DNA of 64,000 nt from an uncultured Bacteroidales bacterium (GTDB lineage: Bacteria; Bacteroidota; Bacteroidia; Bacteroidales; Bacteroidaceae). The stretch spans positions 32,173-96,172 of the forward strand of contig CACYHW010000010.1 of NCBI GenBank assembly GCA_902774335.1, read 5' to 3'. The notes under the pieces are model-generated. The model was not told the DNA's origin and did not search any database. It saw nothing but the letters and a program-made list of their open reading frames with translations. Shown piece after piece: positions 54,907 to 55,223 of this stretch. The translations under genes were made by a program, and so were the position numbers. How positions within the stretch are numbered: position 1 is the stretch's first letter; the number at the start of each line of letters is the position of its first letter.

Positions 54907-55202
54907 AATGGAAGACAATAGGGGTGCTTCTCTTTGTATACTCTTTCCCATTGCAGGAGCAGAGTATCCGGTTTGAGGACCATCAGTGCAGAGGCGTTAA
55001 GCGGAGGGCCTTGGAGGATCCCGTTAAGAACGGCGCTTGTTCGAGGAACGTTAGACCCCGTAGGGGGCTATAAGGACGAGTTCGCCGTTTAGGGTCCGGA
55101 GAGGTCCGGAGTAGCCTCGGAACGTTGTGTCCTCAAACCGGATACTCTGCGTAGTTTCAAACTAAGAGCATACAAAGAGAAACAGTCCTATTATCTTCCA
55201 TT
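54907..55202. repeat. 296-bp nested inverted-repeat element of unknown nature
   Basis: Outer 39-bp arms (54907-54945 and 55164-55202) match at 34 positions. Inner 22-bp arms (54959-54980 and 55129-55150) are perfect reverse complements. The core, 54981-55128, is GC-richer than its surroundings and has small hairpins: CCGTT/AACGG at 55021-55033, GTTC/GAAC at 55039-55049, CCCC/GGGG at 55056-55066. GGTCCGGAG occurs twice in tandem (55093-55101, 55103-55111), and AACGGCG (55029-55035) can pair with CGCCGTT (55083-55089). No ORF or target-site duplication is seen. It could be a non-autonomous mobile element or a structured RNA. I recognise no known family. Confidence 0.85.
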
Positions 55203-55215
55203 GGTGCATTTGTTG

Positions 55216-55223
55216 TACTTTTG
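55216..55223 (+). promoter_or_regulatory. Candidate -7 promoter box of the GNAT-TauE operon
   Basis: TACTTTTG followed by CG matches TAnnTTTG, 17 bases before the ATG at 55241 and 13 bases after the end of the inverted-repeat element. Confidence 0.65.

Follow-up and report, generated by a model that had tools for sequence, protein, structure and literature searches.

A dispersed palindromic element of Bacteroidales genomes with a conserved single-strand fold, most likely of RNA

Introduction

In MITEs, a parent transposase recognises ends of fixed sequence. REP sequences are described as being 20-40 bp long (PMC3733652) and as serving as landing sites for IS110-family elements (PMC1525189). 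Double-hairpin and other repetitive hairpin-forming elements of mitochondria are described as invading intergenic DNA (PMC2800124). Within Bacteroides, FopS is presented as an expressed multicopy sRNA that represses translation of SusC and is also found in a phage (PMC11697453). A collection of palindromic candidate RNAs from the human microbiome includes, for example, the 132-bp HMP2_4205 of Bacteroidetes, and 230 of its 250 palindromic candidates are predicted there to form terminators (PMC8040213).

Here we describe an element that spreads like a REP or a MITE, yet fails some of the tests that define them. It was recognised in a 64,000-nt stretch of the genome of an uncultured Bacteroidales bacterium (contig CACYHW010000010.1, positions 32,173 to 96,172; hereafter, the window), where an earlier note had pointed to a nested inverted repeat between two divergent genes and had suggested a non-autonomous mobile element, a large structured RNA or a DNA structure used in chromosome maintenance. 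We think it likely that this palindrome belongs to a dispersed, non-autonomous mobile element, of which it is one copy and whose plus strand folds into a conserved single-strand structure, RNA being the likeliest form. Mobility and the fold are both well supported. Dispersed palindromic repeats and covarying structured RNAs, usually kept apart, are thus joined in one element.

Results and Discussion

The palindrome between mnmG and the GNAT gene

The flanking genes encode MnmG/GidA and a GNAT acetyltransferase. The geometry given in the earlier note was reproduced throughout. The outer arms of 39 nt are paired at 34 of 39 positions (87% complementary), and the perfect 22-bp inner repeat is the outermost part of the inner arms, which we called as 54959-54995 and 55114-55150. 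The core is indeed GC-richer, with 58% G+C in the part matched by the covariance model R1, and the tandem GGTCCGGAG lies at 55093-55101 and 55103-55111. The TAnnTTTG boxes, which we take to represent the promoter consensus, are located where they had been claimed, at 54892-54885 on the minus strand and at 55216-55223 on the plus strand. The features of the window copy are as follows.

54907..54945, no strand assigned: outer left arm, from arm complementarity; also seen by eye at the locus in three relatives without the core
54944..54958, plus strand: 5' border motif, family form TTTCCATTTGCAGNA; in most of the recent copy pairs inspected, identity starts at about TTTGCAG
54959..54980, plus strand: 5' strand of the inner stem, hypervariable among copies and paired inside each
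54981..55128, plus strand: conserved core (about 148 nt), its helices covarying in the alignment; the R1 match is 54973-55136 (R1 includes the window copy)
54979..55135, plus strand: match to the model R2 at E 2.6e-12; R2 derives from other genera alone
54994..55003, plus strand: conserved box GCGTTAAGCG, facing GGAGTAGC, from the alignment
55022..55031, plus strand: conserved box CGTTAAGAAC, facing TTTAG, from the alignment
55042..55047, plus strand: 5' strand of a double tandem G.A/A.G motif (C-G, G.A, A.G, G-C, G.A, A.G), from alignment A1
55050..55058, plus strand: GTTAGACCC, the spot where an inserted element splits the core in other copies of the same genome
55075..55080, plus strand: 3' strand of the tandem G.A motif, from alignment A1
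55088..55092, plus strand: conserved TTTAG, from the alignment
55108..55116, plus strand: conserved GGAGTAGCC, from the alignment
55129..55150, plus strand: 3' strand of the inner stem, partner of 54959..54980
55164..55202, no strand assigned: outer right arm, from arm complementarity; its mismatches have no strand bias

The predicted folding energy of the plus strand is -150.3 kcal/mol, compared with -90.8 +/- 5.2 for shuffled sequences (z -11.5), and the minus strand, too, folds far beyond its shuffles (z -12.7); none of 200 shuffles was as good in either case. Energy by itself therefore cannot pick the strand.

Copies at unrelated sites and element-free sites

A search of the palindrome's own genome with the 296-bp sequence gave 12 alignments at 10 places, two being the palindrome against itself. 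Of the 37 genus genomes, 25 have a DNA match, the own genome included, and plain DNA similarity is confined to this genus (seven of 201 family genomes; one of 30 genera). The conserved pattern occurs in at least 117 stretches from named records, which are Bacteroidales, Bacteroidaceae or Prevotellaceae MAGs, several of them naming ruminants. In total, 145 distinct copies were collected; up to 20, 9 or 8 copies were scored per genome, and the copy numbers are lower bounds.

The highest identities between copies with unrelated flanks are 96.7% for a pair from two genomes (L067/L179) and 96.1% for a pair within the genome G007 (L054/L131). Forty non-orthologous pairs were listed as the best. In 35 of them the shared stretch measures 201-248 nt; in the alignments inspected it starts at TTTGCAG(N)AGC or slightly before it and stops close to the GCG closing the inner stem.

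Among 1,256 pairs of orthologous sites, 96 have flanks with no element between them; the mnmG locus, counted repeatedly, makes up many of the 96, of which 13 were inspected. Seven sites of the genome G028 were compared fully in G029 and G003. At these sites G029 has an element filled by an IS110 insertion (L310), an element with another core (L309) and, in two cases, no element (L306, L307). At the one closely aligned element-free site (L236 compared with L307, flanks 87-97% identical), the right junction is visible and no clear target duplication is seen. The copy search against Bacteroidales proposed in the earlier note has thus yielded near-identical copies whose loci are unrelated as well as orthologous sites that have no element. 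Together these argue for mobility and support the first of its three suggestions.

The copies lie between tandem genes in 63 cases, convergent genes in 33 and divergent genes in 30, while 19 more are at locus edges. Relative to tandem genes, 34 have the same and 29 the opposite orientation, and only one of 126 is inside an open reading frame of at least 100 amino acids. This context is the one expected from blind intergenic insertion and gives no sign of a host function. A role in chromosome maintenance is unlikely, since copies are numerous, occupy gaps between genes of whatever orientation and vary in presence from one relative to another. At six loci (L034, L037, L061, L067, L217 and L219) a full unit is fused to a fragment of a second copy, several of the fusions lying near AGCC.

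The core covaries and the plus strand is the folded one

Alignment A1 holds 55 copies, from 71 picked, chosen for less than about 90% identity, and was described by a fold of 41 pairs. Over these pairs, 95.1% of the cells are paired, compared with 34.5-52.5% when the alignment is slid by 1-3 columns. Both sides have changed in 28 of the 41 pairs. There are 252 double-change cells, against 73 in shuffles, which ignore the relatedness of the copies. The compensatory changes that the earlier note had named as the mark of an RNA are thus present in the core as covariation for one fold on one strand, and its suggestion of a large structured fold holds, probably as RNA.

In A1, G-U pairs exceed A-C pairs by 223 to 21 in favour of the plus strand, and by 86 to 21 (p 1.6e-10) when pairs with a G-U majority are excluded. 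The set A2 from other genera likewise favours the plus strand (42:6 overall; 23:6, p 0.002, without the majority-G-U pairs). These counts supersede a previous tally of 339:53 (66 of 69 copies), which rested on two separately optimised folds. Because the copies are related, the p values overstate independence. The excess in both sets identifies the plus strand as the folded one. A minus-strand RNA, at which the earlier note had hinted, is thereby ruled out for the core and, by its own bias (below), for the inner stem; the counts behind the hint, three minus-strand and one plus-strand G-U among the arm mismatches, are correct but too few for choosing a strand.

A covarying C-G/G-C pair has a tandem G.A/A.G step on either side (55042-55047 with 55075-55080). 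Over the 55 sequences of A1, the first step is GA in 44 and AC in 10, and the following ones are AG in 50, GA in 45 and AG in 46. Double tandem G.A motifs are more usual in RNA. G-T wobbles are tolerated in single-stranded DNA too, so the plus-strand bias is not proof of RNA. Judged from the alignments, the plus strand most likely folds as a conserved single-strand structure, for which RNA is the most likely form and single-stranded DNA is also compatible.

The inner stem is paired in each copy and has no fixed sequence

Stems were delimited in 127 of 145 copies, and 123 were counted. They average 22.5 bp, with 84 distinct 12-mers. Of 2,770 ungapped positions, 2,675 are Watson-Crick pairs; the remainder comprises 53 plus-strand against 13 minus-strand G-U (p 7e-7 for 53:13) and 29 others.

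Sister copies were compared in 24 pairs, each of mutual nearest copies whose stems are equally long and whose core identity is at least 0.85. Their cores differ at 155 of 3,660 positions, and among 544 stem pairs 45 have changed on both sides and 32 on one. The window copy differs from its counterpart in L013 at five of 148 core positions, and nine of the 22 stem pairs have changed on both arms. At the orthologous site L034/L309, the stems agree and the flanks are near identical while the cores differ. All of these data fit movement of cores between stems, combined with slow compensatory change. A core swap in which the stem stays is directly seen at this one site; elsewhere it is suggested by the sequence comparisons, with recombination as the probable route.

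Outer arms and the fate of the mnmG locus

Outer arms were found in 45 of 123 copies, compared with 30 of 400 mismatched controls. Their mismatches over the 45 copies comprise 37 plus-strand and 32 minus-strand G-U (p 0.63), hence no strand bias. By eye, the GNAT gene adjoins mnmG in 14 genomes, of which ten have a full element, three have the arms without the core and one has a single arm. Three of the ten full elements have the orientation of the window copy and seven are inverted.

The window copy may be viewed as lodged within a 39-nt palindrome that is perhaps an older element; the arms of the latter would let the insert flip and would survive loss of the core. On the other hand, five of the 40 best non-orthologous pairs listed extend to 263-368 nt, some reaching the outer arms, and some element-free orthologous sites also have no outer arms. 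Both observations indicate that the arms can come or go with the unit and speak against their separateness. The evidence on whether they travel with it is mixed.

Recurrence in other genera, at phylum level and in viral-collection sequences

Of 301 family genomes, 27 were matched by R1, the covariance model of the core, and 11 of these belong to seven other genera. Twenty distant loci were aligned and seven were omitted: L329 and L331 as near duplicates, and L335 and L339-L342 as doubtful, which makes the R1 matches in G022 and G024 doubtful too. The remaining 13 loci form the set A2 and the model R2, which contains no copy from the window's genus. In the 64-kb window, the palindrome is the sole R2 match up to E 1. 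At order level, R2 matched 48 of 393 genomes, from 36 of 207 genera; at phylum level it matched 34 of 395, from 21 of 171 genera. The E-values are rough, and the two counts overlap by five genomes, the window's own included. The aligned distant relatives keep the boxes GCGTTAAGCG, GCGTTAARAA, TGTTTGAGCGNAGCGAGTT, TTTAG and GGAGTAGC, with variations, and the helices between them vary.

In IMG/VR, the order-wide pattern occurs in seven stretches, all R2-positive, and the genus pattern has no match. The contigs of two of these viral-collection copies (L398:5432-5559 and L403:2257-2385) have a gene family in common, and the L398 copy sits among phage genes of the portal and head maturation protease families. 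No match to the element was found in plasmids or in named phages. Rfam gave no relevant match for the window copy, for the loci with family 2 or for six distant relatives; matches to miRNA and DUF805b families were far below the gathering scores and were taken as chance. Our literature search met no published description of the element. It gives Bacteroidota genomes a further conserved fold, one for which Rfam has no match.

Nine similar copies of the order-wide type lie within about 24 kb of the genome G067 (L355 and L356, G067:C2:303103-326484), with genes for AAA ATPase, Fic and amidase proteins between them; short tandem repeats precede most of the copies. In two single-contig genomes, R2 matches are spaced about 290-320 nt apart as in a tandem array (G760:C1:1414762-1415487 and G913:C1:3518119-3518912), those of G760 being weak (E 3e-4 to 5e-4).

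Candidate mobilising enzymes and IS110 insertions

Among the 37 genus genomes, RVT_1 proteins were found in seven, Y1 in 23 and IS110 in six. The genome G007 (97% complete) has the most first-look candidates in the genus (54, of which 20 were scored), and no Y1, RVT_1 or IS110 match was found in it; RVT_1 was not found in G000 (87% complete) either. The reverse transcriptase that a retron or group II intron requires in the genome was thus not found in these two. None of 60 fetched Y1 loci (30 of 42 from the genus and 30 of 54 from R2-positive genomes) has a copy within about 1.5 kb, and none of 13 fetched reverse transcriptase loci adjoins one. From G007 and the fetched loci, mobility driven by any of the three families is considered unlikely. 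With the 25 largest clusters considered, no gene was recognised as a common neighbour of 69 copies except at orthologous loci. The mobilising enzyme could sit in missing sequence or belong to another family.

Two different IS110-family elements insert into the core (at L005, L007, L008, L250, L251, L177 and L185, and at L310 compared with L014). The first is inserted near GTTAGRCCC, and its gene is seen only in L005, the other copies ending at contig ends; the second lies between GGTGGGCA and AAAG, where L310 and L014 form a precise filled/empty pair. Of eight fetched PF02371 loci, only L298 and L301 have a split core; the other six have no copy, so the core is not the only target of IS110. 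For an IS110 derivative one would look for the DEDD/Transposase_20 gene; that gene is in six of the 37 genomes and, where it coincides with the element, splits the core as an insertion.

Alternative explanations

On the reading we favour, an enzyme encoded elsewhere and acting in trans would spread the unit as a folded single strand, always of one polarity, by recognising its shape and not its stem sequence. The strand could instead be DNA: an ssDNA hairpin element, related to REP/BIME or to palindrome-associated IS200/IS605 derivatives but large, would be moved in trans by an HUH nuclease (Y1, RAYT/IS200-like), and the bias would mark the plus strand as the one recognised as ssDNA. In agreement with this, the element is palindromic, intergenic and multicopy, and no clear target duplication was seen at one site. 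Moreover, Y1 proteins are present in 13 of 15 R2-positive genomes tested as well as in much of the genus, and REP-like palindromes with GGGACGGTTC lie near several copies. We nevertheless regard it as unlikely: G007, G067 and G602 (97-99% complete) gave no Y1 match despite at least 21, at least nine and at least eight matches, the fetched Y1 loci have no copy nearby, and the double tandem G.A motif is of a kind more familiar from RNA. The orientation of copies relative to local GC skew (18:29, p 0.14) is not significant, in a weak test of 47 loci. A bolder proposal retains RNA and takes the element as a phylum-wide selfish structured RNA lineage, a retroposon counterpart in which a gene-less core spreads, the near-perfectly paired, copy-specific 22-bp stem serves as an identity tag or RNase III-type duplex, and cores are exchanged between stems; we consider this rather unlikely.

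A conserved structured RNA with a host function, either a trans-acting sRNA or a cis element, duplicated by chance like the multicopy sRNAs of Bacteroides, would account for the wide conservation of the fold and for the core being kept in ten of the 14 genomes with the mnmG-GNAT gene order. Multicopy sRNAs do exist in Bacteroidaceae, such as FopS with 14 members (PMC11697453). This explanation seems improbable, however, in view of a gene context like that of random intergenic insertion, the loss of the core in three of those 14 genomes and absence of the element in one, the 12 of 37 genus genomes without a DNA match, and the observed core swap and IS110-interrupted copies. Least probable is a purely DNA palindrome that is kept perfect by template-switch correction and has no single-stranded function. 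The long perfect arms, the unbiased outer-arm mismatches (37:32) and the inversion of the core between species at the mnmG locus agree with it, but the mismatches of stem and core are strongly plus-biased and the core helices covary. It may apply to the outer arms alone.

Relation to known systems

Like REP/BIME with RAYT (TnpA-REP), the element is dispersed, intergenic, palindromic and non-coding, and its core shares with REPs the role of an IS110 landing site described for them (PMC1525189). In contrast to the 20-40 bp given for REPs (PMC3733652), it measures about 200-250 bp and has a conserved multi-helix core of about 148 nt, and no RAYT was found tied to the copies; a Y1 gene was found neither in every copy-bearing genome nor, over the 60 fetched Y1 loci, beside a copy. 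With MITEs it has in common that it is non-autonomous, dispersed and bounded by inverted repeats. It differs from them in its hypervariable stem: instead of fixed terminal inverted repeats in all copies, we find the 84 distinct 12-mers among 123 stems and outer arms in only some of them. No parent element was recognised beside 69 copies, and no clear target duplication was seen at one closely aligned site. The mitochondrial elements are also repetitive hairpins in intergenic DNA, but are organellar and described as diverging in structure and composition among sponge groups (PMC2800124), whereas the present fold and boxes recur over many genera. FopS, compared here by its description, is likewise a multicopy non-coding family of Bacteroidaceae that is also phage-borne (PMC11697453). 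The palindromes of the human microbiome set, again compared by description, are structured and include Bacteroidetes members (PMC8040213), and they could overlap the order-wide branch of the element. The integron attC site was considered because GTTAAGC fits GTTRRRY, presumably the form of the attC R box.

In a genus of mostly rumen-derived genomes, the element explains many of the palindromes between genes and some of the sites where IS110 lands. It raises the question of how, and by what, a structure closed by a stem of no constant sequence is moved or used.

Other palindromic repeats near the element

Short REP-like palindromes with GGGACGGTTC or GAACCGTCCC lie near copies in L004, L041, L068, L175 and other loci and form a separate repeat family. 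A second palindromic family has the core GGGAGGGGCCCGC...GGGAGGG, and several of its members have outer arms resembling those of the element; it was found at L172:4540-4760, L164:2621-2771, L174:825-956, L100:3867-4128, L114:558-728 and L013:1983-2140. At three orthologous sites (L172, L164 and L174), a different palindromic core, GGGAGGGGCCCGC...GGGAGGGATAG, replaces the core of the element. This core is reversed in L174, and at the L029 and L205 sites it shares a similar right arm with the element.
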